From NCBI GenBank assembly GCA_900318955.1, contig ONMJ01000032.1, positions 1 through 35,792 of the forward strand: a DNA stretch of 35,792 nt. Direction: 5' to 3'. The notes below the pieces were generated by a model. That model did no database searches, was not told where the DNA came from, and was given only the letters and a program-made list of their open reading frames with translations. The translations under genes were made by a program, and so were the position numbers. Source of the DNA: an uncultured Bacteroidales bacterium. GTDB taxonomy: Bacteria > Bacteroidota > Bacteroidia > Bacteroidales > UBA932. Position 1 is the first letter of the stretch. Every line of letters begins with the position of its first letter. Shown here piece by piece: positions 468 through 31,900 of this stretch.

Positions 468-511
468 TCTTTTCCTATATTCCATTCGCAAAAGTCTTTT
501 ATTATCAATTG

Positions 512-542
512 CAAAAATAAGAAACTATAGTCAATAAAACAA
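512..542 (-). promoter_or_regulatory. Bacteroidota-type promoter of the ATPase gene
   Basis: On the minus strand TTG (540-542) is followed by a 20-base spacer and TATTTTTG (512-519), matching the TTG/TAnnTTTG consensus. The ATG at 467 lies about 40 bases downstream of the expected start of transcription. Confidence 0.6.
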
Positions 543-634
543 TTTTACTTTAGGTTTTATCAGTATTTTACTTTAGCTTTTCGCAGTGTTTTACTTTGGT
601 TTTTTACAGCGTTTAATTTGGGTTACAGCAACCC
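543..634. repeat. 23-base tandem repeat array, three clear units plus a degenerate fourth
   Basis: Units start at 543, 566 and 589, exactly 23 bases apart. Each begins TTTTACTTT followed by AG or GG and ends with CAGTA, CAGTG or CAGCG. A weaker fourth copy (TTTAATTTGGGTT) starts near 612 and runs into the end of the recombinase remnant. The first unit begins at the base next to the -33 element of the ATPase promoter, so the array is placed as a set of protein-binding sites would be. The spacing is about two helical turns. No coding function is seen here. Confidence 0.7.
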
Positions 635-745
635 GTTGAGTTTAGTCATTGAAGATGCTTTGATGGAATCCACGATGTCAATGTAAGGCTTCATGGATGA
701 ATAGTCGCTGTGGCCTGTCCATTTCATCACGACGTTCGGTGGGAT
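623..745 (-). pseudogene. C-terminal remnant of a tyrosine recombinase (integrase)
   Basis: The minus strand reads 40 codons from IPPNVV to LNGLL and then TAA at 623-625. The stretch VMKWTGHSDYSSMKPYI matches the C-terminal active-site region of Bacteroidota phage-type integrases: the GH of the second conserved histidine box and the catalytic tyrosine in MKPYI. A stop codon lies in frame a few codons upstream of the recognisable part (the frame reads TAA, then LLHF, then IPPNVV), so the arm-binding and core domains are missing. It is a leftover of an integrated element and cannot be an active enzyme. It marks the left part of the window as a site of past insertion. Confidence 0.8.
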
Positions 746-789
746 AAAGTGTAACAATTATTTAGTTGCACCGTCTTTTTTGTTTTCCC

Positions 790-817
790 CACGCAGTATT
801 TCGACTTTTTGCGGTCT
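790..817 (+). promoter_or_regulatory. Candidate ECF sigma promoter box ahead of the sigma-barrel gene
   Basis: CACGCAGTATTT (790-801) recurs exactly at 2549-2560 ahead of the methyltransferase operon. In both places GTCT follows 12-13 bases later, here at 814-817, and a start codon lies about 36-41 bases after the box. The layout suggests a -35/-10 pair recognised by the adjacent ECF sigma factor. This is inference; no published consensus was matched. Confidence 0.4.
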
Positions 818-835
818 TTATCTAGTATAGACCGC
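811..835. promoter_or_regulatory. Perfect 7-base inverted repeat just before the sigma-barrel start
   Basis: GCGGTCT (811-817) and AGACCGC (829-835) are perfect inverted copies separated by 11 bases, ending seven bases before the ATG at 843. The left arm covers the proposed -10 element. It could be an operator or a hairpin in the mRNA leader. Confidence 0.45.
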
Positions 836-842
836 GAACTCT

Positions 843-2546
843 ATGGATAAGCGACAACTCGTGGATGGCTGCAAACGTGGGGACTCTGCATCGGCGGAGG
901 CCCTCTATCGGGACTATTCCGGCAAACTTATGGGGATATGTCGGCACTATGTGGATTCCCAGGAGGTGGCGGAAGACCTGTTGCATGACGCTTTTGTTGT
1001 GATCTTGTCCTCGATCGGCAGGCTGAGGAATCCGGAAAAGCTGGAATCCTGGATGGGGGTCATCGTGAAGAACCTTGCTATCGATTATCTCAAGGAGAGC
1101 CAGCATTTCACACATCCGGAGGAAGACATCGGCATAGAGGATGTCCCGGAAGAGACCGTGTATCCCGTCCCCCCTTACGATGATTTATTGGAACTGATTG
1201 ACCGCCTGCCAAAACAGTATGGAAAGGTGTTCCGCCTGTCCGTTCTGGAGGGGCTTTCGCATAAGGAAATCGGGGCGCTGCTGCATATCGGAGAGAAGTC
1301 ATCCTCATCCAATCTTTTCAGGGCAAGACAGGTACTACAGAAGGAGTTGAAACGGTATTGGCTGGCACTCCTTGCCTTGATAGCCCTGATTGTCACTCCA
1401 CTCCTGCTACATAAAGAGATGGAGTCCATGCCGGGACAGAATGGTCCTGTGGCCATGACGCCCGCCGAAGACAGTGTCCATGTGGTACTGTCGGTGGATT
1501 CGTTGTCGGCTCCCGAGACTCCTTCCTTGATAGAGAGTCCCCAAATGGCAGCAATCAGCGCCAATGATACAACGCTGACAAAGACTGATTCTTCCATAAT
1601 ACGCGAGAGGCTGGCTCCTATTGACATTCGTCCTATTTCTATCCCGTCCGTTTCACTCAGAGCATCCGGACAGGAATTCAGGATCAGAAAGCAAGAGCGA
1701 CAGGCGGCAGAGTTCAACCAGCGACTGCTGGCCGAAACCAGAGCAACGGCGCGTAAGAATCACCTTGGACTTCTGCCCTCCATTTCGGCACTGCCCAGCG
1801 CTATTGCCGGGAGCAGCCCGATTGTGATGGGTTCCGGTATCCTGGCTCAAGCATCGTCCCACATTCTGGCTCCGGACACGAGGGTCTCCTCTTGGGATGA
1901 CTTCCTCACGGCAGTACAGTCTATGGAAGGCCATTACAGCACCGGCGATTCGCTCGCTTACTACAACTCGCTCCTCCATATTGCGGAAAGGCTGGCAGTA
2001 CCGGAAGCAATGGATCCGAATCCGAAGCCTGTAGAGGAGAAAGCCGAATACGAAAAGCCGTTTACGCTAGGTCTCAGCACCAGTATCGGTTTGAATGACC
2101 GCTGGAGCGTACTGACAGGTCTGGAATATACTCGGCTACGTTCTACGCATTCCATCGGCCGTGATACGCTGTATATCAAGAATCAGCAGACCATCCATTA
2201 TCTGGGTGTCCCTCTCGGCCTGTCCTATACGGTCTGGTCAAAGGGCAATCTGAACTTGAATGCATCTGCCTTCGGCAAGATGGAGATTCCGGTTGCCGGA
2301 ATCCTGAACAGCGAGCACCACAACGGAGTGGCCTACACTTATCAGAACACATTGCGGCTAAAAGCTCCGGTTCAGTGGTCAGCGGGCGCAGGCATCGGGG
2401 TTCAGTATAATCTTACCCCTTGGATGGGCCTGTATGCGGAGCCGCAGGTTCGATATTATTTCGATACCGGAGGTGGCGTCCAGACAATCAGACAGGTTCA
2501 ACCCGTCGAGTTTACTGTACCTTTCGGCGTACGACTGACCTTCTAA
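843..2546 (+). CDS. ECF sigma factor fused to a membrane helix and an outer-membrane-type beta-barrel
   Basis: The single frame of 567 residues has three parts. Residues about 5-90 are an ECF sigma region 2, with the segments EDLLHDAF and SWMGVIVKNLAIDYL. Residues about 112-170 are region 4 with its helix-turn-helix (DRLPKQYGKVFRL, GLSHKEIGALLHI). A hydrophobic helix follows at about 172-190 (YWLALLALIALIVTPLLL). After a long Ser/Pro-rich linker, residues about 400-567 are amphipathic beta-strands ending GVRLTF, the C-terminal aromatic typical of outer-membrane barrels. No zinc-binding anti-sigma motif is seen. In related genomes such barrel proteins are usually separate genes next to a sigma gene; this is family knowledge from memory. 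The helix should hold the sigma part at the inner membrane with the tail in the periplasm, so release may need proteolysis. The start at the ATG at 843 fits the sigma N-terminus. Confidence 0.85.
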   Translation: MDKRQLVDGCKRGDSASAEALYRDYSGKLMGICRHYVDSQEVAEDLLHDAFVVILSSIGRLRNPEKLESWMGVIVKNLAIDYLKESQHFTHPEEDIGIEDVPEETVYPVPPYDDLLELIDRLPKQYGKVFRLSVLEGLSHKEIGALLHIGEKSSSSNLFRARQVLQKELKRYWLALLALIALIVTPLLLHKEMESMPGQNGPVAMTPAEDSVHVVLSVDSLSAPETPSLIESPQMAAISANDTTLTKTDSSIIRERLAPIDIRPISIPSVSLRASGQEFRIRKQERQAAEFNQRLLAETRATARKNHLGLLPSISALPSAIAGSSPIVMGSGILAQASSHILAPDTRVSSWDDFLTAVQSMEGHYSTGDSLAYYNSLLHIAERLAVPEAMDPNPKPVEEKAEYEKPFTLGLSTSIGLNDRWSVLTGLEYTRLRSTHSIGRDTLYIKNQQTIHYLGVPLGLSYTVWSKGNLNLNASAFGKMEIPVAGILNSEHHNGVAYTYQNTLRLKAPVQWSAGAGIGVQYNLTPWMGLYAEPQVRYYFDTGGGVQTIRQVQPVEFTVPFGVRLTF

Positions 2547-2548
2547 AG

Positions 2549-2578
2549 CACGCAGTATTTGCCCATCCGGTCAGTCTA
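2549..2578 (+). promoter_or_regulatory. Second copy of the candidate ECF promoter box, ahead of the methyltransferase operon
   Basis: CACGCAGTATTT (2549-2560) begins two bases after the sigma-barrel stop codon. GTCTA follows at 2574-2578 and the next ATG is at 2596. The box is identical to the one at 790-801 and sits at nearly the same distance from a start codon, which suggests that the sigma factor controls itself and the three genes behind it. Confidence 0.4.
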
Positions 2579-2595
2579 ATAGGAAAACAGACCTG

Positions 2596-3375
2596 ATGGG
2601 AAACAGATACAAAGACCGGCATCAATACTTCGACGAATTGGTGGAGACATCGACGGCTTTCTACGTCGATTATATCCGCCAATACACACCCGTTTCCGAG
2701 GGTACTCGTGTTTTGGAAGTGGGGTGCGGCGAAGGGGGGAATCTCTTGCCCTTTGCACTGATTGGCTGCGAGGTGACAGGAGTTGACTATTCCGAGAAGA
2801 AGATTGAAAATGCGCGGAACTATTTCCGGATAAATGGCGCTGAAGGTAGTTTCTTCTGTGCGGATTTCTTTGATTTTCCCCAACAGGACAAAGCATTTGA
2901 CGTAATACTTGTCCACGATGTGATAGAGCATATTGCGCCGGAAGACAAGGGACGTTTTCTGGAACGGATTCATACATTCCTGGCTCCCGAGGGTGTTGCA
3001 TTCCTGGCCTTTCCTGCCTGGCAGATGCCGTTCGGCGGTCACCAGCAGACCTGCGTCCGGAAGGGAGTCCGAGCCCTCCCGTGGATCCATCTACTGCCGA
3101 TGCCGGTATATCGGGGAATCCTCCGCATGTTCAAGGAACCGGAACAACACATAGAAGAGTTGATGGACATACGACGCTCACGGATGACTGTGGAGACATT
3201 TGAAAGCCTTTGCCGGATGGCAAGTTACGTTGTTTTGGACCGGACTCTCTGGCTCGTCAATCCTCACTATAAAGCCAAGTTCGGACTCCACCCCGTGAGG
3301 TTAAGGCTGGGCTTGGACAGGATTCCGTATCTGAGGAATTGGTTATCGACAAGTTGCTGGTATGTCATACACTGA
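2596..3375 (+). CDS. Class I SAM-dependent methyltransferase
   Basis: The 259-residue protein has the Rossmann-type SAM-binding core. Motif I is VLEVGCGEGGN (about 39-49), the acidic end of the second strand is GVDYSEKKIENA (about 67-78), and post-motif segments are FFCADFFDF and VILVHDVIEHI. This is the Methyltransf_11/23 type of small-molecule or glycan methyltransferase. The C-terminal third, rich in Arg and Trp, is not recognised and may set the substrate. No signal peptide is present, so it acts in the cytoplasm. Its last 14 bases overlap the acyltransferase gene, so the two are probably translated together. The pairing with an acyltransferase suggests modification of a surface sugar or lipid, which is inference. 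Confidence 0.85.
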   Translation: MGNRYKDRHQYFDELVETSTAFYVDYIRQYTPVSEGTRVLEVGCGEGGNLLPFALIGCEVTGVDYSEKKIENARNYFRINGAEGSFFCADFFDFPQQDKAFDVILVHDVIEHIAPEDKGRFLERIHTFLAPEGVAFLAFPAWQMPFGGHQQTCVRKGVRALPWIHLLPMPVYRGILRMFKEPEQHIEELMDIRRSRMTVETFESLCRMASYVVLDRTLWLVNPHYKAKFGLHPVRLRLGLDRIPYLRNWLSTSCWYVIH

Positions 3376-4432
3376 TTCCATACTTATCAAAAGACTCCGT
3401 TTCCCCCTTGCCGTAATGGTGGTTTTCATCCACTCAGGCAATAGGCCGTTTGTGCATGGTGGAGAATGGTTTCGAGTAATGTCTGCGGATGTTATTCCCA
3501 CAATAGCTGTCCCACTGTTCTTTCTGATTTCCGGGTATTTGTTCTTTCGAGGGCTGGAGAGATGGAACTGGGATGAATGGAGGAAGAAGATGTATCGGCG
3601 GGTCCATACACTGTTGATTCCGTATTTAATTTGGACAACGCTTTATATCGCATACGTCTATTTCCATCAATGCCGACTTTCTCTATGCGCAGACGAAGGA
3701 TGGATTCCGGTCGGCCAGTGGTTTTCCGATAATGGCGGAATGAGTATGTGGTGGGATTCAATCGTGACGGAAAACGTTCATCCGCTAGGGTACCGGATGA
3801 TCTCCGCCCATCCCTTCCATCGAGTACTTTGGTTTGTCAGGGACTTAATGGTTGTCAATGTATTGTCACCCACTATTCATTGGGCGCTTCGCAAAGGAGG
3901 GAAGATGGTCCTGATAGCGTTACTTATCCTGTACCTTCTGCAGCTTTGGCCACCATTTCACTGCATCGGGATAACCTGTGTGTTCTTCTATACGGCAGGT
4001 GCTTATCTCTCAATCAGAGGAAGAGACTTGAACGAAACCTTTTCAAGGTGGAAGACATCATCATGGTTGATATCGTCACTCATTTTGGTACCGATGATTC
4101 TCATTCGGCAAAGCGAATCTTTCATAATACTGAAACCAACGTGGTGTATCGTGGAGGCTGTCGCTTTTGCAAACCTTTTGGTCGCGCTTCCTCTTGAATC
4201 GCACGCAAGGACTATCTCATTGTTATCCGATAGCACTTTCTTCGTCTATGTTACACACTCTGTTGTCCTTTCTAACATCAGACAAGCATTACTTGTTTTG
4301 CTTCCGTTTCATTTAAGTGAAGCAACCGTGTTTTTGCTGACAGCTATACTCACCGTCGCATTCTGCGTCTCGGTTTATTTATTTGTGCGGAAATGTTTCC
4401 CGCAACTTTGTGTTTTCATCTGTGGAAGATAA
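3362..4432 (+). CDS. Membrane acyltransferase, acyltransferase-3 (OafA/YrhL-like) family
   Basis: This 356-residue protein is mostly membrane helices, about ten. It opens with the family signature: RLRFPLAVMVVFIH with the conserved histidine near residue 24, followed by AVPLFFLISGYLFF and, in the middle, WFVRDLMVVNVLSP. Family members move an acyl group, often acetyl, from a cytoplasmic donor onto sugars of surface polysaccharides or other acceptors at the inner membrane. The ATG at 3362 lies inside the end of the methyltransferase frame, and the start gives a normal N-terminus, so the overlap looks real. The gene ends 16 bases before the next start. The actual acceptor cannot be told from the sequence. 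Confidence 0.88.
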   Translation: MSYTDSILIKRLRFPLAVMVVFIHSGNRPFVHGGEWFRVMSADVIPTIAVPLFFLISGYLFFRGLERWNWDEWRKKMYRRVHTLLIPYLIWTTLYIAYVYFHQCRLSLCADEGWIPVGQWFSDNGGMSMWWDSIVTENVHPLGYRMISAHPFHRVLWFVRDLMVVNVLSPTIHWALRKGGKMVLIALLILYLLQLWPPFHCIGITCVFFYTAGAYLSIRGRDLNETFSRWKTSSWLISSLILVPMILIRQSESFIILKPTWCIVEAVAFANLLVALPLESHARTISLLSDSTFFVYVTHSVVLSNIRQALLVLLPFHLSEATVFLLTAILTVAFCVSVYLFVRKCFPQLCVFICGR

Positions 4433-4448
4433 TTGATTCTTGTATATT

Positions 4449-4952
4449 ATGCTTCGGTTTAGGTTTTTTCAATCATTGGCCATCTCCCTTTTTGCCGTTT
4501 CGATACTCTCGGGATGTAACCCCGCCTATTATGATCCGATTGTGCCAGAGGTTTTGGTCGGTCAAGGAGTTCATAGGGATGGCGGCACTTGTTATTTCAT
4601 GATTATCTGGGAAATCGACACGGAGCCACATTTCCCGGAGCATTTCCGGAACTGGGGATACAGGATAAGAGTGGAGAACTCCGGGGAAGAGTTCTTGACG
4701 GAAGAATATAAGACCATCGAAGAAGTCTTAGTTCGGAAAATGCCTGGTGCCAATTGGGAATATGATGAAGAGAGCCAGTGCTGGTTAGTCCCTTTCACAA
4801 TGCCCGCCAACCTGAACCTTATGCCGCGGGGTTATCGTGTTGAAGTCATTATCGCTTCCGATTATAAGCAGTACGATTCCGTACAAGATCTAGATGATGG
4901 GATTAACCAATGGCAGACGGTGTATCAGGGGATCCAGTTCGGAAGATTTTGA
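4449..4952 (+). CDS. Small lipoprotein of unknown function
   Basis: The ATG at 4449 gives MLRFRFFQSLAISLF and then a lipobox, SILSGC, so the mature protein starts with a lipid-bearing cysteine at about residue 23. A TTG three codons upstream is possible but would spoil nothing and is less likely. The mature part (~145 residues) is rich in Glu, Trp and Tyr and looks like a beta-sandwich, with alternating strands such as YRIRVENSGEEF and YRVEVIIAS. I do not recognise a family. It is the last gene of the methyltransferase-acyltransferase run and is probably placed in the outer membrane or periplasm. Confidence 0.7.
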   Translation: MLRFRFFQSLAISLFAVSILSGCNPAYYDPIVPEVLVGQGVHRDGGTCYFMIIWEIDTEPHFPEHFRNWGYRIRVENSGEEFLTEEYKTIEEVLVRKMPGANWEYDEESQCWLVPFTMPANLNLMPRGYRVEVIIASDYKQYDSVQDLDDGINQWQTVYQGIQFGRF

Positions 4953-5082
4953 TCGAGGCTCCTCGAGATGACGGATGGCACTCTCTGTTATTTTTCCCAT
5001 TTGATTTCAACGTGAACTGCCATAGGCGAAACTGTTTCCCACACTGGCATTTGCTTTTTCTCCCTCTTTCGGGCTTGCCCGT

Positions 5083-5221
5083 CGTACACCAGAGAGGGGT
5101 CTCGGTGTACGAGAAGAGGTCTGGATTGCTCGCCGTACACCAGAGAGGTGACACCTGGTGTACGAAAAGAGGGCTGGACTGCCGGCCGTACACCAGAGCA
5201 AGGCCACGGTGTACGAGAAGT
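5083..5221. repeat. Three tandem units of 51-53 bases, each forming a hairpin
   Basis: CGTACACC at 5083, 5134 and 5187 is followed, after 13-15 bases, by its inverse GGTGTACG at 5104, 5157 and 5208. Each unit therefore makes an 8-base stem. The sequence between hairpins (GAAGAGG-TCTGGATTGC and variants) is also shared. Loop bases vary more than stems, so the stems seem to be conserved. Confidence 0.85.
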
Positions 5222-5689
5222 GACCGGCATCAACCAAAAATGTCACAATCACCAACCATTTTCGGGCTCAAGGCAAAGGGCTGGAGCCGACAAATCGATA
5301 TAATTGACATTTCTGATGCAAGCCGGACAAATCCCGAAGATGAGTGAGGGATAAATCCCTATCCATGTTGCCCCTTTCCTCATACCCTTTCTCAATGCCC
5401 CTTTCCCATACTCCCTCCCCATACTCCCTCCCCATATTACCGCATAAACTTTCAGCGCCGTGAGGTGTAACTCGTTTACTATCAGCTATTTCTCGTTTTT
5501 AAACTTGTCTCTATTAATAGATTAAAGTCAGCATTTGACTCAGTATCAAGAGTTTACGTCTCACGCGGCGTGCTCCCTTCCCCTTTAAAGGAACGATTTC
5601 GCCGTAAGAGTAAACACTTTTTTGACATAATAGACATTTCCCGGCCTGAGGGCCTGCTCATCAAAGGGCTAATACTCAATTACTTCCAG

Positions 5690-6923: not shown

Positions 6924-7724
6924 TTATCCTTGCATCTTCTTGCGGAAGGCAGATGGCGTCATTCCCGTTTCTTTCCTGAAAAACCTGGAAAAATAGGACT
7001 GATCTTCTAAGCCTACAGCACTTGCGACATCTATGACTGAGAACCTTGTTTCGCTGAGAAGACGCTTTGCCCGCTGGATTCGGGCAATATCGACCCAAGC
7101 ACCGACGCTGCGACCCGTCGCATTTTTAACAAGACGGCTGAGATAGTTACCGCTGATCCCAATCTGATCCGCATAGTACGAAACGGATCCGCTCATCCTC
7201 TCTGAATCGAAAACCAGCTCGAGGAAACGACTTACACCTGATGGCAGCGCCGTTTCCCGACCTGGATTAATGCGGGAAAGAAGCAGGTCAATCCCCTTTT
7301 CCACGAAAACTTGATCTCCCTTCTCAAAAGATGAGGCCAGCATATTAAAAAGTTCTCCTACAAACGCTCCCTCATCGAACCAGAAGCCCTGATGAAGCGG
7401 AGAAGACAGGAATCTCAATGGCTTGGAATCTGCCATTATAGATGGGGAGAATCCCCCCATATACCCGACGGCATCCCGGAAATACTTGATAGCGAAGGGA
7501 CTATTCTGCGGAATCAGAAGAAGCTGTCCCGGTTGGCAAAGAAACGGAGTGTCTCCGACCTCGACCAGAACCTCTCCTGAGGCGACATAAATAAAACCAA
7601 TCAAAGGAAGCCTTGCCTCAGGGATTTCTGATGCCTGGACATTGCCGGAGGTGTTTATTCTCCGTATTATAAACTTTACGGCCGAAAAGTCTCTTTCCGG
7701 ATTCCAGTGAGTCTTTGGATGCAT
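6924..7724 (-). CDS. AraC-family transcriptional regulator with an N-terminal cupin-like domain
   Basis: Residues about 40-110 form a small sensing domain of the AraC-binding cupin type (GFIYVASGEVLVEVGDTPFL, then QPGQLLLIPQNSPF). Residues about 165-263 hold the double helix-turn-helix: YYADQIGISGNYLSRLVKN, and then the signature RFSVIDVASAVGLEDQSYFSRFFRKETG. The protein has the usual length of 266 residues. Its ATG (7722-7724) comes one base after the TAG of the upstream hydrolase, so the two are one transcription unit. It may control that unit or the nearby SusC/SusD genes; the effector cannot be told. Confidence 0.9.
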   Translation of the reverse strand: MHPKTHWNPERDFSAVKFIIRRINTSGNVQASEIPEARLPLIGFIYVASGEVLVEVGDTPFLCQPGQLLLIPQNSPFAIKYFRDAVGYMGGFSPSIMADSKPLRFLSSPLHQGFWFDEGAFVGELFNMLASSFEKGDQVFVEKGIDLLLSRINPGRETALPSGVSRFLELVFDSERMSGSVSYYADQIGISGNYLSRLVKNATGRSVGAWVDIARIQRAKRLLSETRFSVIDVASAVGLEDQSYFSRFFRKETGMTPSAFRKKMQG

Positions 7725-8596: not shown

Positions 8597-10459
8597 TTAC
8601 TCGCTGCTTCTGTCAATATCGTCCCAACCAGGATTCTGTTTGAGAGCGGGATTGAGTGAGAGCTCATCGAGAGGAATCGGATAGTAGTAGTCACGATTAT
8701 CATCGAAGGTAATCACAAGGTTCTGATAAGGCTCGATGTAACCACCGTTTTCTCCGTTGGAAAGGAACACATCGGTACCGATCTTCCAGATATAGGTAGC
8801 GGTCGAGCTAGCCGGCTTAGACTGGCTTGCCGTATAGAGGGCAACGTCATTCTTGCCGTCCTGATCGAGGTCATAGACACCGGGACCCGGGAAGTAGAGA
8901 CCGTACATAGGCTGCTTGATGCAGTATCCTGCCTTCCAGCGAATGAGGTCGTTGTAGCGGAGGCTTTCTTCTGCCATCTCGACACCACGCTCACGGCGAA
9001 TTTCAAGGATAACACCCTTATTGGCACCGGAGACATTGTTGAAGCCCCACTTGCCTTCGCAAAGGAACTTATCCGGGTTGGCGTTAGCCTGAGCCATATT
9101 CATGTGCGGCATTGCAACACGGTCGCGGAGCAGGTTGACGGACTTGTCAAGGTCGGCCTGGGTAAGAGTTCCGAGCTCAGCCTTTGCCTCAGCGAAGATA
9201 AGATAGATTTCAGCAAGACGGATGATCGGAAGGTCATTGTAAGACTGGTCGAACTTATCGTTCTGAGTGTTGGTGATAGGCATCAGATACTTGGAGTTCT
9301 GGTAGCCTGTAATAGGAACGAGAAGGTCAAGGCCGAGTTCAGGACCGGCATAGTTGTAATTCTTGGAAGCTCCTGAGCCGTCGATACGGTGGTAACCGGG
9401 AGTACGCATTGTCTGTCCGAGACGAGGGTCGCGATTGACAGTCTCCTCAATCCACATCTTGGTCTCCCAACCGGGGATATCGGTGAAGCGGCTTCCGTCA
9501 GCCATGAGGTAAGAGCAGACAGCCTTCTTGGTCATCGAATAACGGCCCTGTGAGTTCATCAGGTTGATAGCGGTTCCATTGTGGTAGTATGCATTGTCAT
9601 TACCATAACGGGTAGAGAAGATGAACTCGTCAGCAGTTGCATCGAACTGGGTGAACATCAAAGCATAGTCGAGGTTTGGACGACCGGTGCTGAAGAGCTT
9701 GTGAGGGCTCTCGGTCATGATCTTCTCAGCTGCTTCTGCTGCCTGCTGGAGATAGTAGTTGGCATCGTGACCTTCAAGAGTGATTCCGTGATATTTACGG
9801 AAAGTACCCTCGAAGAGGCAGAATCTTGCCTTGAGAGCAAGTGCAGCCCACTTGGTGGCACGATAGGTGGTACCGCCGTAAGAAGCAGGAAGGTGCTCTG
9901 CTGCATAATCAGCATCCTCGATCATCTTGGTGAGAACGAGTTCGCGGCTGTCACGAGCCTTGTAAAGAGCCTCATCTGAACTTCCGGGGACATAATCAAG
10001 CCATGGAACGTCTCCAAACTTGGTCACCTTGTCGAAATAGAACCATGCACGGAAGAAACGGCAAAGAGCGGAATAAGTATTATAAGTGCCCTCGTCCTCG
10101 CAGTTCTTTTTCATGTATTCGAGGCAGACATTAATTTTACGAAGCGCTGACCAAGACCAGCCATTACCTGAAGCAGGGGTGATACGCATGTTTCCGTTAC
10201 GAATCAGAGCGCCCGGGTTATCCCTTATGAAGAGATCACTTTGCTCGGCATAGACGGTGTGGCTTATCACACTCAAGTAGAGAGAATTCGTGAAAAGCTG
10301 GAGGTCGGTTTCATTCTTGAAATAAGTTTCAGGAGCCAACTCCGAAAGAGGATTAAGATCCAGTACGCTTTCGACCTTTTCTTCAAGCTTTTCGCATGCG
10401 GAGAATCCAATGAGGAAGGCCGCAAAAAGAATCATATATTTTTTCATACTGCAATTCAT
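8597..10459 (-). CDS. susD: SusD/RagB-family glycan-binding lipoprotein
   Basis: The protein of up to 620 residues has a lipoprotein signal peptide. The start at residue 5 (ATG at 10447, MKKYMILFAAFLIGFSAC) is the more natural one; the ATG at 10459 adds only four residues. SusD signatures are present: LNPLSELAPETYFKNETDLQLF near the mature start, YSALCRFFRAWFYFDKVTKFGDVPW (read from about 128), and the C-terminal RRERGVEMAEESLRYNDLIRWKAGY followed by YYYPIPLDELSLNPALKQNPGW. Such proteins bind glycan at the outer surface and form a lid over a SusC transporter. The gene starts two bases after the susC stop. The substrate is not clear from the sequence, as no enzyme genes are directly linked to this pair. 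Confidence 0.95.
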   Translation of the reverse strand: MNCSMKKYMILFAAFLIGFSACEKLEEKVESVLDLNPLSELAPETYFKNETDLQLFTNSLYLSVISHTVYAEQSDLFIRDNPGALIRNGNMRITPASGNGWSWSALRKINVCLEYMKKNCEDEGTYNTYSALCRFFRAWFYFDKVTKFGDVPWLDYVPGSSDEALYKARDSRELVLTKMIEDADYAAEHLPASYGGTTYRATKWAALALKARFCLFEGTFRKYHGITLEGHDANYYLQQAAEAAEKIMTESPHKLFSTGRPNLDYALMFTQFDATADEFIFSTRYGNDNAYYHNGTAINLMNSQGRYSMTKKAVCSYLMADGSRFTDIPGWETKMWIEETVNRDPRLGQTMRTPGYHRIDGSGASKNYNYAGPELGLDLLVPITGYQNSKYLMPITNTQNDKFDQSYNDLPIIRLAEIYLIFAEAKAELGTLTQADLDKSVNLLRDRVAMPHMNMAQANANPDKFLCEGKWGFNNVSGANKGVILEIRRERGVEMAEESLRYNDLIRWKAGYCIKQPMYGLYFPGPGVYDLDQDGKNDVALYTASQSKPASSTATYIWKIGTDVFLSNGENGGYIEPYQNLVITFDDNRDYYYPIPLDELSLNPALKQNPGWDDIDRSSE

Positions 10460-10461
10460 GA

Positions 10462-13400
10462 TTAGAAGGTGATGTCAATTCCGAACAGCATAGTCTTGCT
10501 CCAAGGAATCCACACTCGCTCATAAGTAGTACCTGAGGTCTTTTCAGCGACAGACTCCGGATCGATATAGACTGAATACTTCTTTAAAGGAGACCAGTAT
10601 GCCATGTTTTCACCCGTGAAGTAAACACGAACTTTGTCCATACCGACTTTGCGGGTCAAATTCTGAGGCAGTGAATAACCGACAGAGACATTCTTCAGAC
10701 GGAGATAACGAACGTTCTGGAGATATCTGGTGTTGGCGTAGTAGAGAGGAGCCTGAGATGTGTATGCATAGTATGCAACCGGACGAGGGAAGTATGCATC
10801 CTTATTCTCAGGAGTCCATGCAGACTCATAGAGACCCTTCTGGAGGTAGGTAAGCATCGGCTGGGAATAAAGACCCCAGAATGCCCAGTTGGTAGAAGGG
10901 AAATAGTACTGGCGTTTGCCGACTCCCTGGAAGAACATAGAGAAGTCGAATCCGGCATAATCGAAGCCGAAGGTCAGACCATAGTTGTATCTAGGAGTAG
11001 AGTTACCAATAATCTTACGGTCACCAGGCTTGTCTACTGTGTTCTCACCGATACCGATCTTTCCGTCAAGGTCGAGGTCGATATATTTCGGGTCACCACC
11101 AGCCCACTTGCTTCCGGGGACGCGCTTATTGACATAACTCATATCGACAGTCTGAACGTATTCCTGAGCTTCCTCATCACTCTGGAAGAGGCCGTCAACC
11201 TGGTATCCCCAGATTTCACCAATCTCCTGGCCTACATAGTAGTCCTTTGCGAAGGTCTTGTTGGGGTTATCATATTTGGTGATGTGAGATACATAGTCGC
11301 TGAGGGTCGCACGGATATTGTAGCCAAACGGACGGTTGCCGAGAACGAACTGATCCCTCCAGCCGATGGAAATCTCATATCCCTTGGTACGAAGGTCGGC
11401 GGTATTCGCCTGAGGAGCATCAGCGCCATAGAGGGCCGGGAGAGCGACACCCTCAGTAAGCATGTCCTTGGTGTCGCGGATGAAAGCATCAGCTGTGATT
11501 TCGAGCTTGTTGCCAAGGAAAGCGGCGTCAATACCGAGGTTGTACTGCTCGGAACGCTCCCAAGTCATGGTATCTGAGTTAGGCGCAGAAATGCTGGAAG
11601 ACTTGGCGGCAAGACCGCCGGGAGCGAAGTTGTAGTTGTCGGACATCTTTCCGATAGAAATGGTCTGCGCCCAGAGATAGTTGGACACGTTCTGGTTACC
11701 GAGGGTACCGAATGAAGCACGGACCTTGAGGTTATTGACAGTGTTCTTCAGAGGAGCGAAGAAAGGTTCCTCAGAGATACGCCAACCGGCGGAAACAGAG
11801 GGGAAGAAGCCCCAGCGGTGACCGCGGGCAAAGCGGGAAGTTCCGTCATAACGTCCGGAGACCTCGAGGAGGTAACGGCCCTTGTAGTCGTAGTTGAAAC
11901 GACCGAAGAAGCCAAGGAGTGCGTAAGCGGACTGTCCGCCTTCTACCTCAACTGCAGGCTCGCCGTTTTCATCAGTTCCGATGAGAGCAAGGTCATTCAG
12001 CTCTTCGGTAAGCATATACTTGCCATAACCGCCGACTCTCTTATAATGGTAGTGCTCATAGTTTGCACCGCCCATGAGAGTGACGTGGTGGCCGCTGAAG
12101 GTATCCTCGAAGGTACCGTAAATATTGGCGGTATCCCATCTGTAAGACTGGATTCTCTCTCTATAGTCATCAAGACCGGCACCTGTCGAGTAGTACTTCA
12201 TCGCTGCACCGGGGAGATCACGGTAAGGGATGTTGACCGAACGGGAGGAGAACTTAAACTCACTGGTACGATAGGTATAGTTACCGATGAGGGTGAAGTT
12301 CTTGGTCGGCTTGATTGTTAATTCTGTTGTGTTGGCAAATTCTGCGCGCTCCTCAAAGTTGGTGTGCTTACCCATACCGATAATGATGTGACGACCGTTA
12401 GCGACTGAGTAGGAACCGTTGAGGATACCGGAAGCCGGAGTATAGAGCCAGCTACCGTCCGGGTTCTTGAACGGGAACACCGGGAGAGCGTGAGCTGAAG
12501 AATAAGCGATAGTGTTCTCTACGGAGCCATCACCAAGATAGTTGTAATGGGTGCGGAAGTAAGAGGTGTTGTTGCTTAAACGGATGTACTTGTTGACCTC
12601 AATATCCAGTTTAGAACGGAGGTACACCTTGTTGAAAATATCCGGAGCCTGACGAATGATACCGATTCTGCGGTCGTAACCGCCGGAGAGGAAGTATTTC
12701 ATCTTCTTGGTACCTCCGGAGAGGGAGATGTTGTGCTGCTGGGTAGGACGGTCATCGCGATAGAGGAGGTGCCACCAGTCGTTGTTACCATAGTAGCGCC
12801 ACATGTTCTTACCGTTCATATATCTCTCGACAACCCAAGGACGGGAAGGATCCTCGACCTTATCGTTGCGACGCTCATAGAGAGCGGCCATATCCTCATC
12901 ATCATACATGATATAGTTGGAACCGAGGCAGTTGTAACGGAATGCGTTGGTTGCAACGACAGACTCGTAACCACAGGTCACATAATCAGTCGATGTGGTC
13001 GGTGAATCCCAACCGAAACGGCCGCTGTAGCGGACTGTAGCCTCACCGTCGGAAACAGCACCGCTCTTGGTGGTAACGAGGATAACGCCGTACGCAGCAC
13101 GTGCGCCATAGACAGCACCTGCAGCAGCATCCTTGATGACAGAGACGGACTCAACGTCATTAGGGTTGATACGGTTGAGGTTACCTACTGCACCATCAAT
13201 GAGTACGAGAGGTGAACCGCCATTGATAGAGGTGAATCCACGGATATTGATTGAAGGATCCTCGTTGAGACCGCCACGGCCCTGAGCCGTAGAAATGGTA
13301 AGTCCCGGAACCGATCCCTGGAGCATGAAGCCGAGGCTTCGTGCGGAACGGTTCTCGAGTTCTTTGGACTCAACAGCGGAGACCGCACCGGTCAGGTTGA

Positions 13401-13749
13401 CCTTTTTCTGGGTACCGTAACCGACAACGACTGTCTCCTCGAGTGACATAGTGTCCTCGGCGAGGGTTACGTTGATGGAATTCTGCCCTACGGGGACAGT
13501 AATTGTCTGGGACTCATATCCCATGGACGAAAACTCAAGGACAGCAGCTCCAGCGGGAACGCTGAGAGAGAACGTACCGTCGACGGTTGACATAGCTCCG
13601 CGGGTAGTTCCCTGGAGAATGATACCGACGCCCGGAAGCGGATCACCATTGCTGTCACGAACAGTACCGGTAATGGTTCTGTTTTAAGCAAACACCGTCA
13701 CTGCGAAAAACAATGACAGAGTCAGAGTCAAAAGTTTTTTGATGCTCAT
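10462..13749 (-). CDS. susC: SusC/RagA TonB-linked outer-membrane transporter, interrupted by one in-frame stop
   Basis: The natural start is the ATG at 13747-13749, giving the signal peptide MSIKKLLTLTLSLFFAVTVFA. The next codon is TAA (13684-13686), and then the frame continues unbroken with NRTITGTVRDSNGDPLPGV, the carboxypeptidase-like domain of SusC proteins. In relatives this codon is commonly a glutamine at the cleavage site, so a single C-to-T change (CAA to TAA) explains it. From there the frame is intact: a TonB box region (LEETVVVGYGTQKK), a plug domain (IRGFTSINGGSPLVLIDG) and a long barrel ending MLFGIDITF. The protein would be 1095 residues if the stop were read. Without the signal peptide (a start at 13593 or later) it could not reach the outer membrane. 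Either the gene is dead or the base is a sequence error. Confidence 0.93.
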
Positions 13750-20909: not shown

Positions 20910-24306
<3,397 letters not shown>

Positions 24307-24316
24307 ATTCAATTAT

Positions 24317-26731
24317 TTATCTTTTGGGTACAATCGTTTTTCCCGTTTTTAGGCCCTTGCTCTTGACAGTCAGAATACCATCTTTCGAAGATGAGGGCTT
24401 AATGATAATCGATGCAAGGCCTCCAAAAGCTTTGAGGCTCTTACTGTAGAAAGGGACAAAGCTTGTCGGATCGCCTGCATCAGCCGCCACGAAAGAAGCG
24501 TCTTTAACGCTGATTTCCAGAAGGTTCTCTGCCGTAGGGACAAGATTACCATGACGATCCAGAACCCTCACTGTATAGAAAGCATAGCTATCGGAGTCGG
24601 AACCGCCTGCATCTTTTGTCACCTCGATCCTATACGGCTTACCTGCCGTACGGACAGCATCTCGAGCCCATTCGTGGCCGTCCTTGTAAGCAACGACTTC
24701 GACAGTACCGGGCTCATAGAGAACGTCATCCCAGCGTAGACGGTGTTCCCTGTCTCCCTTGACTTTCAAGCCCTTAGACTCTCCGTTTATAAAAAGCTCA
24801 GCGCTATCTCCGGACGTATATACATGAATCGGGGTCACCTTTCCCTCACGGCCCGGCCAGGTCCAGTGCGGAAGGATATGGGCCATAGGAAGAGACGGTC
24901 TCCACCGTGCCTGATAAAGCCAGAAACGGTCCTTCGGGAAACCGGCAAGATCGAAGATTCCGAAGTAGGAACTTCTCGAAGGGAGAGGCACGGAGGCGAC
25001 CTTCTGTCCCCATGATTCAAGTTCGGCAATTGCCTTGGCCTTTTCCTCCTCCGAGTGGAAGTTGGTCAGAATCGAAGGGTCGAGATTATAAGGAGTCGGC
25101 TCTCCGAGATAGTCATAACCCGTCCATACGAATTCTCCGGCGCACTCGGGATTCTCATCCTCGTAGAACCACTCGTAATCAGGAGATGAAGCCCAGGCGG
25201 GAGCATAAAGGTCATAGGAACTTACCTGGAAAGGAGCATCCATCGTCCATCCTTCGCCCTTCTCATTTGATACCGGGAACTCATAATATCCCCTTGTACT
25301 GATGCAGGAGGCCGTTTCGCTGCCAAGATAAGGCTGAGTAGGGTTGGCCTTATGGAAGGCGGAATATGAATGGGGCTTATAATTGAATCCATACACATCG
25401 ACGCTCTCGTGGTAGGGCTGGGTCGATGCCCAGAGATTGTCATTGCCGCTGGTTGTCGGCCTTGTAGGGTCCTCCTGATGGCAAATATAAGTTAGATGGT
25501 GCGGAATCCACCACTTTTCAGGCAGGCCCTGCTCACCGCACTCATTGCCGATAGACCAGAGGATGACCGAAGGGTGGTTGCGATCGCGGCGAATCATCGC
25601 GCGAAGATCCTTCTCCGCCCACTCTTCGAAAAGAGAAGCGTACCCGTTTGGTTTCTTGGCATAGGTCCATGTATCAGTAAGCTCATCCATAACGAGAAAG
25701 CCCATCCGGTCACAAAGGTCCAGAAGCTCCTGAGCAGGCGGATTATGAGAAGTCCTGATAGCATTGCAGCCCATTTCTTTGAGAGCCTTGAGCCTCTTGA
25801 CCCATACTTCCTCGTTCCAAGCAGCCCCGAGAGCACCGGCATCATGATGGAGACAAACCCCTTTGATGAAAGTCTTTTCACCATTGAGATAGAACCCGTC
25901 TGGGCGGAAAGAGGCCGAGCGGATTCCAAAAGGTGTATCATATTCAGCGGCGACCTTCCCTTCCTTCAAAAGTTCCGTACGGACTACGTACATCGAAGGG
26001 TGTTCAGGGCTCCAAAGGCTTATATCTTTTAGTTCAAAACCTTGATTGACAATTGCTTCTCCAGCTTCGGACACAACCTCTGCGAGGGCCTCTGAAGATC
26101 CTTCCCGAAAAATTCTGCTACGTATATTGACTCCTTCGAAGCCTCCGCGGAAGGAAACTGAAAGGCTGACTTTCGCTCCTTCTCCGACTAGCTCTGTCCG
26201 TACAAATGTCCCCCAATGGTCAACCGCTACTGGTCCCTCTCTAACAAGAGAGACATTGCGATAAATCCCTCCTCCGGGATACCAGCGGCTGGAATTCTCA
26301 GGATTATCGACCCGGACGGCGACAACATTATCGCCTTCCCGAAGAGTAGGAGTCAAATCGACCCTGAAAGAAGAGTATCCATAAGCCCAGCGACCCACCT
26401 CGACGCCGTTGCAGAATACTGTCGGATTGGCCATGACTCCTCCGAAATCAATGAAGACTGATTCAGACAAGTCATTGACAGTGAAGTGCTTCCGATACCA
26501 TGCAGTCCCCCACCAAGGGAGCTTTCCGGTCTCCCCGGGGTACTCCTGCTTAAACTCTCCTTCCACTCCCCAATCGTGGGGAAGGTCCAGAAGACGCCAT
26601 GAAGAATCGTCAAAGTCAGACGAGGCAAAAGCTGGATCATCCGCCTTTATGAACCTCCACCCGCCGTTGAAATTCTGGGCTGAGAGAGTCAGGGAAAAAA
26701 GAAGCGAGAATATCAGAAGCCTGTATTTCAT
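24317..26731 (-). CDS. GH2 beta-galactosidase-type glycoside hydrolase
   Basis: This 804-residue protein has a cleavable signal (LLFSLTLSAQ) and the GH2 domain order: an N-terminal sugar-binding domain (WRLLDLPHDWGVEGEF, VFIDFGGVMANPTVFCNG), an immunoglobulin-like domain, and the barrel from about residue 280 (GVCLHHDAGALG, IRTSHNPPAQELLDLCDRMG). The acid/base is Glu397 in SIGNECGEQ and the nucleophile Glu472 in YLGSETAS. Two further beta domains follow, including the DUF4982-type part seen in Bacteroidota beta-galactosidases (PHWTWPGREGKVTPIHVY). The likely substrate is beta-linked galactose, which fits the GH53 galactanase in the same operon. The gene is five bases from its upstream neighbour. 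Confidence 0.92.
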   Translation of the reverse strand: MKYRLLIFSLLFSLTLSAQNFNGGWRFIKADDPAFASSDFDDSSWRLLDLPHDWGVEGEFKQEYPGETGKLPWWGTAWYRKHFTVNDLSESVFIDFGGVMANPTVFCNGVEVGRWAYGYSSFRVDLTPTLREGDNVVAVRVDNPENSSRWYPGGGIYRNVSLVREGPVAVDHWGTFVRTELVGEGAKVSLSVSFRGGFEGVNIRSRIFREGSSEALAEVVSEAGEAIVNQGFELKDISLWSPEHPSMYVVRTELLKEGKVAAEYDTPFGIRSASFRPDGFYLNGEKTFIKGVCLHHDAGALGAAWNEEVWVKRLKALKEMGCNAIRTSHNPPAQELLDLCDRMGFLVMDELTDTWTYAKKPNGYASLFEEWAEKDLRAMIRRDRNHPSVILWSIGNECGEQGLPEKWWIPHHLTYICHQEDPTRPTTSGNDNLWASTQPYHESVDVYGFNYKPHSYSAFHKANPTQPYLGSETASCISTRGYYEFPVSNEKGEGWTMDAPFQVSSYDLYAPAWASSPDYEWFYEDENPECAGEFVWTGYDYLGEPTPYNLDPSILTNFHSEEEKAKAIAELESWGQKVASVPLPSRSSYFGIFDLAGFPKDRFWLYQARWRPSLPMAHILPHWTWPGREGKVTPIHVYTSGDSAELFINGESKGLKVKGDREHRLRWDDVLYEPGTVEVVAYKDGHEWARDAVRTAGKPYRIEVTKDAGGSDSDSYAFYTVRVLDRHGNLVPTAENLLEISVKDASFVAADAGDPTSFVPFYSKSLKAFGGLASIIIKPSSSKDGILTVKSKGLKTGKTIVPKR

Positions 26732-26736
26732 AAAAA

Positions 26737-28707
26737 CTATCTTTTGAATTCGACAACAAGAGCTGACTTTGCAGGCACAACCGTATCATCGGAAAGAACT
26801 ATCGCAGAGCCTGTTACGACGTCGCGCCCCTTGACTGGACCGGAGACGAATTCGCTATAGTGAGACCAGGGGATATTCTTGTCAACAGATTCGTTATTGA
26901 TGAAAACGTATACAGCGTCGGTGTCATTGTAACGGAAGTACCCGTAGGTGTTCTCTGTTATGTTGCGATTGTACTCATTGTGGCGGGAGAGGAAATGGAG
27001 GGTCTTGCCGTCATGAATGACCTTTGCAGTCTTTCTCCAATTGAAAAGAGCCTTCGCATAATCATGTAGCTCCGCAAAAGAAAGGCCCGCCGCCTCTCGG
27101 CCTTCTGCAGTGAAAAGATCGTACTTATCACCCTCCCAGCCCCCTGGGAAGTCGATTCTCTTAGATCCATCATTACCGAATCCCTCCCTTTCGAGAAACA
27201 TCATCTCGTCTCCATAGTAGAGTTGCGGTATGCCGCGGATCGTTGCGAGCATTGCATAGAGCATCTTCATCTTCCTCGGATCCCGGTTCATAATATCACC
27301 GGTTCTCGGATGGTCGTGATTGGCAAAGAACGTCATCATGTGGCTGAGGTCCGCATAAGCAAAATCCTGCGCGAGGACGCTATAGACCCGGGTCATCCCC
27401 TCGGACCAATTTACATTCTCCTCACACATCGCTCCAATCATCGCATCCCTCAGGGGGAAGTCCATTATTGAAGGGAGGTTACTGTCAAAGCCGTTCTTAT
27501 TGCCGGCACCGGTCTGCCAATAAGCGAGCTGAGCGATATTGTTGTCCCAGCACTCGCCTACAATGTTCATCGCGGGATACTCTTCCCTTACGGCAGCACA
27601 CCAGCGGCTCATCGGCTCCGGCTCATTATAGGGATATGTATCTACACGGAGTCCGTCGAGGTCGGCATACTCTATCCACCAGATCGCCCACTGCTGGAAG
27701 TATTTGAGAACAAAGGGATTATCGAGGTTCATATCGGGCATCGAAGGAACGAACCAGCCGCTTTCCTGCCGATCGAGATCGGTCTTCGCAGCGTTCGGAT
27801 CCATATAGACAGAGAACAATGCATTCATCTGCATATACGGTTCGTTGACATGGTACCAATCCTTGAACGGAGCGTCGTCCATCCACCAATGGCGGGTCCC
27901 GCAATGGTTGGTAACTACGTCCATTATGACCTTTATTCCCTTATCGTGAGCCTTTGAGACCATTTCCCGATAGAGGGCGTTATCTCCGAAACGGGGATCA
28001 ATATGGTAATAATCGCAGCAAGCGTAACCGTGGTAGGACTCATATTCCTGATTGTCAAGAAGAAGAGGGGTGCTCCAAAGAGCCGTAGCGCCGAGGTCAG
28101 CGATATAGTCAAGATGGTCAATTATGCCCTTGAGATCGCCTCCGTGACGATAAAGAGGCTTTTCCCTGTCCGCCCTGTCCGGCATTGTAGGGACCTTGTA
28201 AGCCCTTGCAGAACCGTCGTCATAGACATTTCCGGAGAAAGCATTGTCATTTGCCGGGTCGCCGTTGGCAAAGCGGTCCGGCATTATCAGATAGATAAGG
28301 TCGGCTGTGGTGAAACTCTCCCTGTCGGCGCTTCCTTCTCTCCTGCCGTTGATTACGTACGGAGCCTTGAAAGTATCCTCTCCCTTCTTAAAGACAAGAT
28401 AATATGTCCCCGGCACTGCCTTTGGGCCGATTTCAACATCGATAAATACATAGTTGGGATTATCTCCGGGATGGGTCCCTTTGACCTTTATGGCCGGAGT
28501 ATCGAATGAAACCTCATATTCAGAGATATTATCGCCCTTCACCATCAGCTGAAGGTCGGTTTTCATATCCGTCCACCAGGAAAGAGGCTCAATGCGAATG
28601 ACCTCTGAGCCAGTTGCAAAGGGGACATTTTCAGCGTTTGATGCCGACTTTGTCCCGCAGGAAGCAAGAAGAAGTGCGCCCGAGAGAAGTATGAGAATCC
28701 GTTTCAT
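26737..28707 (-). CDS. susA: GH13 neopullulanase/cyclomaltodextrinase-like lipoprotein (SusA-like)
   Basis: The 656-residue protein begins with a lipoprotein signal (MKRILILLSGALLLASC). Residues about 30-120 form the beta-sandwich typical of the cyclomaltodextrinase/neopullulanase group (VIRIEPLSWWTDMKT). The barrel has all four GH13 regions: DVVTNHC, DGLRVDTYPY with the nucleophile Asp356, NIVGECWD with Glu385 and FANHDHPR with Asp465. The C-terminal beta domain ends VVEFKR. The architecture matches SusA, the periplasmic neopullulanase that cuts maltooligosaccharides and pullulan taken in by SusC. Predicted to be a periplasmic lipoprotein here. It is four bases after GH53 and five before GH2. 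Confidence 0.92.
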   Translation of the reverse strand: MKRILILLSGALLLASCGTKSASNAENVPFATGSEVIRIEPLSWWTDMKTDLQLMVKGDNISEYEVSFDTPAIKVKGTHPGDNPNYVFIDVEIGPKAVPGTYYLVFKKGEDTFKAPYVINGRREGSADRESFTTADLIYLIMPDRFANGDPANDNAFSGNVYDDGSARAYKVPTMPDRADREKPLYRHGGDLKGIIDHLDYIADLGATALWSTPLLLDNQEYESYHGYACCDYYHIDPRFGDNALYREMVSKAHDKGIKVIMDVVTNHCGTRHWWMDDAPFKDWYHVNEPYMQMNALFSVYMDPNAAKTDLDRQESGWFVPSMPDMNLDNPFVLKYFQQWAIWWIEYADLDGLRVDTYPYNEPEPMSRWCAAVREEYPAMNIVGECWDNNIAQLAYWQTGAGNKNGFDSNLPSIMDFPLRDAMIGAMCEENVNWSEGMTRVYSVLAQDFAYADLSHMMTFFANHDHPRTGDIMNRDPRKMKMLYAMLATIRGIPQLYYGDEMMFLEREGFGNDGSKRIDFPGGWEGDKYDLFTAEGREAAGLSFAELHDYAKALFNWRKTAKVIHDGKTLHFLSRHNEYNRNITENTYGYFRYNDTDAVYVFINNESVDKNIPWSHYSEFVSGPVKGRDVVTGSAIVLSDDTVVPAKSALVVEFKR

Positions 28708-28711
28708 ATGT

Positions 28712-29836: not shown

Positions 29837-29851
29837 CGTTTTGTACTACAT

Positions 29852-31834: not shown

Positions 31835-31855
31835 AACGAGCTATTTAATTGGGAA

Positions 31856-31881
31856 GAGGAGGCCCGGCCAAGGGCCTCCTC
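31856..31881 (-). other. GC-rich intercistronic hairpin between the SusE/F-like and SusG-like genes
   Basis: GAGGAGGCCC (31856-31865) and GGGCCTCCTC (31872-31881) make a perfect 10-base stem with a six-base loop, in the only long gap (66 bases) of the operon. On the minus strand it is not followed by a U-tract, so it is more likely an mRNA processing or stability element, or a leaky terminator, than a full stop. Confidence 0.55.
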
Positions 31882-31900
31882 CTCAAAAAATCAAAGCGAA

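Follow-up and report, generated by a model that had tools for sequence, protein, structure and literature searches.

The gene at positions 843 to 2,546 on the forward strand of the window, by which is meant the whole 35,792-nucleotide stretch of Bacteroidales DNA that was analysed, encodes a protein of 567 residues in which an ECF sigma factor, a membrane helix, a linker and an outer-membrane-type beta-barrel are joined in one chain. Judged from its sequence the product is a Dma-type (dual membrane-spanning anti-sigma) protein, and with a probability of roughly 60% it operates as a self-contained, autoregulated surface-to-promoter switch of the Dma3 type, in which the membrane tether itself represents the off state and proteolysis is the probable means of release. 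As a rule, sigma factors of the ECF class are controlled by a partner that keeps them hidden. Can anchoring alone do what such a partner does? The fused protein, a single chain from cell surface to promoter with no anti-sigma domain, makes silencing and release by anchoring directly testable, and a short candidate promoter suited to a reporter is at hand. A surface signal could reach genes through this single molecule, and the fusion could be a compact part for the engineering of gut Bacteroidales.

Layout of the fused gene

The host of the window is a gut or rumen bacterium with a genome of 2.4 Mb. The frame of the fused gene is uninterrupted from the ATG at 843 to the stop codon at 2544-2546 and has no internal stops, which, together with the stop-free orthologs described below, bears out the sequence-only reading that one continuous gene runs from sigma factor to barrel. 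Its parts follow each other on the forward strand. Region 2 of the sigma factor (903..1100, residues 21-86) matches Pfam PF04542, Sigma70_r2, with 44.4 bits against a cut-off of 24, and region 4 (1179..1331, residues 113-163) matches PF08281, Sigma70_r4_2, with 48.6 bits against a cut-off of 25.7; with both regions above their Pfam cut-offs the protein qualifies as an ECF sigma factor. As regards the sigma group ECF21, the NCBIfam model TIGR02985 gave 81.2 bits, which is under its cut-off of 126.4. The family profile, compared with solved structures, matched 20 distinct sequences, all named sigma factors and all through the sigma part only.

Directly after the sigma domain comes a single membrane helix (1356..1412, residues ~172-190), predicted from hydropathy, which has a proline inside it and is the one hydrophobic segment of the fusion, with a mean Kyte-Doolittle value of 2.17 over 19 residues. 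Since the net charge is positive before the helix and negative after it (+3.4 and -1.0 respectively, as means of the clade of the window protein over 15 residues on each side), the N-terminus of the fusion is placed in the cytoplasm, and the helix could act as a signal anchor that leaves the sigma domain on the inside. The putative periplasmic linker that follows (1413..2042, ~210 residues) is variable in sequence and contains 13% serine and 8% proline. The chain ends in the outer-membrane-type beta-barrel (2055..2543, residues 405-567; PF13568), where the OMP_b-brl_2 match over residues 405-540 scores 26.6 bits, just below the cut-off of 27, and 29.1 bits, above it, in the genome search. This barrel has relatives in two separate Dma-like proteins encoded in the same genome, its C-terminal residue is phenylalanine, and it is presumably inserted in the outer membrane.

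Distribution, integrity and origin of the fusion

The search for the same fusion in relatives, proposed in the sequence-only reading, returned 66 frames with both parts among 174 sequences (the window and the loci), of which 34 are distinct and fall in at least five families of the order; the anatomical counts given here rest on a direct check of ORFs. The genus sample of 400 genomes, which includes the own genome, contains at least 25 carriers of a sigma-barrel fusion, 22 of them recognised by a near full-span match in a single frame and three more (G211, G366 and G358) by the ORF check, with the incomplete copies of G005 and G359 left out. The order sample of 393 genomes holds at least six carriers beside the own genome (G755, G725, G619, G774, G763 and G785), which belong to families f111, f59, f5 and f25, together with a broken copy in G457. 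For the 151 genomes of family f59 there are at least 26 near full-span matches in a single frame, to which the ORF check adds G785, G795 and G925. Among the matches listed for the phylum sample (296 genomes, E <= 1e-55) only the own genome and G457 appear, at a cut-off that the most diverged fusions would fail. Candidate fusions in G029, G012 and G027 were rejected as two ORFs in the same frame with a stop codon between them.

The statement in the sequence-only reading that sigma factor and barrel are encoded by neighbouring genes in relatives proved correct, for the loci read contain 58 such split pairs. Two of these are in the own genome in addition to the fusion, each with a sigma gene followed at once by a separate barrel gene (G000:C34:4983-6657 and G000:C39:48290-50036). 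The total derives from 60 barrel frames that have no sigma domain, 59 of which have a sigma frame close upstream, less one broken fusion (L108), and it is a non-random set in that the loci were ranked high by a query based on the fusion, such that nearer split sisters could be missed. The broken fusion (L108/L192, from G457) was considered as a split pair and rejected. At L192:5922-7411 (G457:C13, another family) the fused gene has its frame broken past the helix and a transposase gene lies just upstream, as in a decaying copy.

What has been lost in the fusion is apparent when it is set beside the split barrel proteins. In all 58 of these the open frame extends for at least 43 residues ahead of the helix, with the likely start some 40-70 residues before it and a recurrent P..(L/V)W-type pattern, as seen by eye and with predicted starts, and this stretch is the place of the anti-sigma domain in the Dma papers. 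Of the 34 fusions, 31 have a gap of -5 to +3 residues between the sigma end and the helix, the window protein having a gap of 0, so that by sequence the anti-sigma domain is absent from these 31 and the sigma domain abuts the helix. The three remaining fusions (L058, L093 and L094), referred to as remnants, have 26-28 residues between sigma domain and helix, which by eye match the second half of the pre-helix stretch in split proteins such as those of L018 and L147. No sigma or anti-sigma gene is seen adjoining the window gene either, in line with the earlier view that there is no separate anti-sigma factor. Linker length is 132-215 residues in the 34 fusions and 141-228 in the 58 split barrel proteins. 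A proline is found in the helix of 28 of the 34 fusions, 12 of which are close kin (12/12 in the clade of the window, 13/19 of the others and 3/3 remnants), against 16 of the 58 split proteins, and alanine and glycine together account for 0.38 of the helix in split proteins versus 0.12-0.14 in fusions.

Could the joined frame nevertheless be an artefact of sequencing or assembly, a dead gene fusion, or a frame from which internal initiation yields two proteins? This is very improbable. The ortholog search returned 14 loci, of which 11 from other assemblies (L043-L053) have a full-length, stop-free frame at 66-95% identity and L054 has one at 40%; L055, with runs of N, and L056, cut by a contig end, are uninformative. 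Several of these loci come from genomes that were also sampled under another handle, with equal scores, and duplicates were removed by sequence before counting. Because the same stop-free frame is kept across 11 other assemblies it is no frame accident. The case in which the parts are always separate in relatives and the fusion is an assembly error has thus failed, and assembly error or frameshift is ruled out by the stop-free orthologs, the 34 distinct fusions and dN/dS values well below 1. For the whole gene, dN/dS between the window gene and nine orthologs of equal length is 0.10-0.20 (L048 and L050, the latter with an indel, and L054 being left out), and by part it is 0.05-0.34 for junction and helix, 0.12-0.40 for the linker and 0.05-0.09 for the barrel, with the larger dS values (> about 1.5) near saturation; these ratios indicate that the fused gene is under purifying selection. 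On the side of an artefact, a broken copy with an interrupted frame and a transposase gene nearby does exist in G457 (L192), and on the side of internal initiation a GTG at codon 129, within region 4, is conserved in 12 of 13 sequences. Against the latter, the stretch from codon 121 to the helix end has no ATG in 12 of the 13, and the best-placed start, TTG 169, reads TTA or CTG in five of the 13, so that two proteins from internal initiation are not supported by the sequences. One of the 11 orthologs, L052, 66% identical to the window protein, comes from a bin labelled Fibrobacter (Fibrobacter sp. RGIG5144); a mis-binned Bacteroidales contig is a more likely explanation than transfer between phyla.

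The fusions do not have one origin. In a tree of sigma and barrel parts with 87 rows, from which six near-copies of the window gene had been dropped, 25 fusions that have no anti-sigma domain form one clade with the broken L108 (support 100/99), and the three remnants are placed inside the split clade. A tree of the sigma part only, in which eight other ECF factors from the own genome served as root, gave the same picture (95/93), though with a less certain root due to the long outgroup branches. A single origin of all fusions is rejected, as forced monophyly costs 127 log-likelihood units (p-AU 4.5e-39, for a grouping that was chosen after seeing the tree), and for the three remnants the comparison of one with two origins gave a p-AU of 0.325. 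With remnants inside the split clade and a single origin rejected, sigma and barrel genes have therefore fused at least twice. Within the split pairs of L059, L060, L061, L147 and L148 the sigma stop and barrel start are in the same frame and only a few codons apart, which hints at the route by which fusions arise, and the three remnants group with L147 and L148 in the tree.

A promoter-like motif at the fused gene and its neighbours

In the sequences upstream of 12 orthologs good alignment is confined to the last ~60 nt, and within these lie an invariant ACGCAGTATTT box, a spacer of about 12 nt and GTCT. In the window this promoter-like motif, ACGCAGTATTT-N12-GTCT, lies on the forward strand at 791..817, starting 52 nt before the ATG, where it is a candidate promoter for the gene's own sigma domain and would allow autoregulation. 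A second copy, ACGCAGTATTT-N13-GTCT, is located on the same strand at 2550..2577; it begins 4 nt after the stop codon, and the next gene starts 46 nt beyond that point. These two are the only copies of the strict motif in the window, with none expected from 100 shuffles, and also the only two in the whole 2.4 Mb genome. Across 11 carrier genomes, 15 of 16 strict sites are at the fusion locus, against two hits for a backward control pattern, and 21 genomes with no full-span fusion among the matches listed contain two sites in all. A generic scan for sigma-70 promoters and terminators over 500-5400 gave no excess over shuffles (7 vs 5.0 and 2 vs 4.7, respectively).

Of 61 distinct fused genes, 53 have the box GCAGTNTTT within the 150 nt that precede them, as compared to a mean of 0.41 and a maximum of 2 in shuffles, and in 49 of these 53 it lies 44-71 nt from the chosen start; the other eight have none in those 150 nt. 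The 61 are what remained of 77 fused entries once 16 had been removed, 15 of them trimmed copies and one whose upstream sequence was too short. None of seven other ECF genes in the own genome has such a box. It is present before 10 of the 58 split sigma genes, and variants of it (GCAAC or GCAGC forms) are present before 17 more, so the box is partly a family trait. In the wide loci, after reduction of the clade of the window to two members, 10 of 40 immediate neighbours of the fusion have the box before them, as compared to one of 181 other genes (p 1.3e-7); the box stands before the fused gene itself in 25 of 31 cases, and 12 of 20 downstream neighbours do not have it. The fused genes are mutually related, such that the cases are not independent, though they span several families.

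Through this co-occurrence the motif appears tied to the sigma factor of the fusion. It is rather improbable that the copies at 791 and 2550 are bound by another regulator while the sigma domain has other targets, a reading to which the shared box of the 10 split sigma genes lends itself. Opposed to it are the occurrence of the box alongside fused genes from several families and alongside neighbours that differ in function, the rarity of strict sites elsewhere (one of 16 off the locus in the carriers and two in the 21 genomes with no full-span fusion listed), and the shape of the motif, an upstream box, 12-13 nt in the window and a GTCTA-like box, which is similar to that of ECF promoters.

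The second motif copy stands ahead of what is probably the first gene of a target operon, a SAM-dependent methyltransferase (2596..3375, forward strand; PF13649). This is overlapped by a gene for a membrane acyltransferase of the Acyl_transf_3 type (3362..4432, forward strand; PF01757), and the third gene of the putative operon encodes a small lipoprotein-like protein with no Pfam match (4452..4952, forward strand). In 16 of 32 wide loci the fusion has a methyltransferase gene of the same family next to it; 12 of these loci belong to the clade of the window, and two genomes are counted twice (repeats L174 and L175). The acyltransferase and the small lipoprotein-like gene each occur in five of the 32. 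A serpin-type gene is near the fusion in 11 of the 32 (six from the clade of the window, one repeat, L178, L179, L185 and L193); two of these were put to Pfam and both are serpins (3.1e-98 and 5.1e-89), the rest being assigned by clustering. Those of L178, L179, L185 and L193 each have their own box, and in L179 the serpin gene precedes the fused gene, which has no box of its own. Elsewhere the boxed neighbours are lipoprotein-like genes (L181 and L183), a gene for a 306-residue protein with no Pfam match (L186) and a radical SAM gene (L189), and in L186 and L187 secreted-type peptidases are encoded one gene further on. Serpin-type genes recur close to the fused regulator within this genus, one of them at L047:7368-8810, while in the window it is the acyltransferase that follows the methyltransferase.

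Past the putative operon the window contains tandem repeats at 5075-5220 (period 53, 2.8 copies) and 5371-5436 (period 13, 5 copies), and an AraC-type regulator at 6924-7724. The stretches 8597-13593 and 23041-35728 resemble a polysaccharide utilisation region, with SusD, a SusC-type TonB-dependent receptor, an alpha-amylase and GH2 enzymes as well as a protein with a weak, sub-cut-off SusE match.

Proposed anchoring and release, and known systems

In split Dma pairs a cytoplasmic anti-sigma domain holds a free sigma factor, and in the fusion the sigma domain takes the position of that domain. With the anti-sigma domain lost and the sigma domain in its place, the off state would have to come from the tether itself, either through membrane confinement or because region 4 would be jammed against the membrane. 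The sigma domain would reside in the cytoplasm, and the helix, which comes after region 4 without a spacer, would fix it to the inner membrane; the linker would span the periplasm and the barrel would sit in the outer membrane. Whether it arises at the outer membrane or within the tether, a change could then travel down the linker and most likely lead to a periplasmic cut followed by intramembrane proteolysis, whereby the freed sigma domain would read GCAGTNTTT promoters, at its own gene and at the adjacent operon, which comprises the methyltransferase, acyltransferase and lipoprotein-like genes here and serpin or other genes in relatives. Tethering as the off state, proteolysis, recognition of the motif by the fusion's own sigma factor and the nature of the signal are all presumptive. 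A proline in a helix fits the substrates of intramembrane proteases. A cut is favoured by the greater frequency of helix proline in fusions than in split barrel proteins, although the Ala/Gly-rich helices of the latter may serve proteolysis as well as proline does, and by the precedent of IutY from Pseudomonas putida, a sigma/anti-sigma fusion that, in the accessible part of its description, is processed by Prc and RseP (PMC8999054). The own genome does have an M50 protease gene, but this discriminates nothing, because all 14 control genomes have one as well.

The fused protein might instead work uncut. Membrane-bound regulators of the ToxR/CadC type provide the model for such action, in which barrel and linker would shift the conformation or position of a membrane-bound sigma factor and RNA polymerase would be recruited at the membrane. 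This is unlikely, though it accords with several features of the fusion, namely that no anti-sigma domain remains to be degraded, that purifying selection acts over the whole frame including the linker, and that the helix comes right after region 4, such that helix movement could act on region 4. That same closeness looks cramped for a region 4 that would have to reach both -35 DNA and polymerase with no spacer from the membrane, and the known fusion, IutY, is activated by cutting.

It is also conceivable, but distinctly improbable, that a split Dma protein in the same cell represses the fusion in trans through its anti-sigma domain, with the tether serving only for localisation. The own genome has two split Dma-like barrel proteins, and in Bacteroides thetaiotaomicron expression of the dma3 locus rises on deletion of dma1 and of dma2, which the authors, in the part of the paper available, regard as possible cross-talk (PMC13088901). 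Against this, a deep division lies between the fusion and split clades, and the GCAGTNTTT box is seen much more often ahead of fused genes than ahead of split ones. According to the same accessible text, the hypervesiculation of dma1 and dma2 mutants persists when dma3 is deleted (PMC13088901).

What might the tethered switch respond to? A split pair of the same architecture in Phocaeicola vulgatus is induced by an antibacterial toxin, and its authors, as far as their paper could be consulted, suggest an envelope-stress trigger (PMC9308784); by analogy the fusion may respond to envelope stress. The adjacent operon repeatedly contains a serpin, that is a protease inhibitor, or surface-modifying enzymes, which may point to sensing of outer-membrane attack or surface proteolysis. 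A wider interpretation, which is tentative and given slightly less than even odds, is that sigma and barrel genes have fused at least twice and that one old line of regulators in the Bacteroidales has dispensed with the anti-sigma domain. In this line the sigma factor would be held off solely by anchoring between two membranes, the anchoring chain would itself be the sensor, and the protein would drive itself and the adjacent operon on sensing such attack or proteolysis, with a matching defence.

Regarding known systems, the sigma domain, one or two helices and further regions of ECF48, ECF52 and ECF53 proteins from Actinobacteria (e.g. SCO4117) are likewise in one chain, to judge from the accessible portion of the source (PMC8999054). 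They differ from the fusion in having a zinc-finger anti-sigma domain and no outer-membrane barrel. IutY (ECF243) similarly combines a sigma factor with a membrane-bound regulator, as described in the section of the same source that was available (PMC8999054). It is unlike the fusion in that an anti-sigma factor is within its chain, a domain that the window protein does not have. IutY also acts together with an outer-membrane receptor that is a separate protein, and is not known to contain a barrel. Dma1/Das1, Dma2/Das2 and EcfO/Reo, compared by description and from partly accessible papers, share with the fusion a helix, a long tether, an outer-membrane barrel and an ECF sigma output (PMC13088901, PMC9308784, PMC13114119), but consist of two proteins, of which the barrel protein begins with a cytoplasmic anti-sigma domain. 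That feature is absent from the window protein, where the sigma domain ends at the helix with a gap of 0. The split pairs found in this analysis have their sigma families, barrel families and linker length in common with the fusion.

The sequence-only reading could not say whether such a fusion had been described, and the answer is that it has. Dma3 of B. thetaiotaomicron (bt_2778-2779), likened here by description, has an N-terminal sigma domain and no cognate sigma gene adjoining, and is counted as a Dma member despite that sigma domain in the part of the paper accessible (PMC13088901). The window protein has the same two characteristics, an N-terminal sigma domain on a barrel protein and no adjoining sigma gene. 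The papers listed on membrane-tethered sigma factors, judged by title, do not deal with such fusions, and the literature located, in so far as its text was accessible, made no mention of anti-sigma loss in Dma3, a promoter motif, repeated fusion or adjacent targets. Within the accessible literature, then, the new elements are the absence of the anti-sigma domain from 31 of 34 fusions, the separate fusion of the other three and the promoter-like motif at fused and adjacent genes. The kind itself is already in print with Dma3, and the window protein adds to a sparsely described kind rather than representing a new one.
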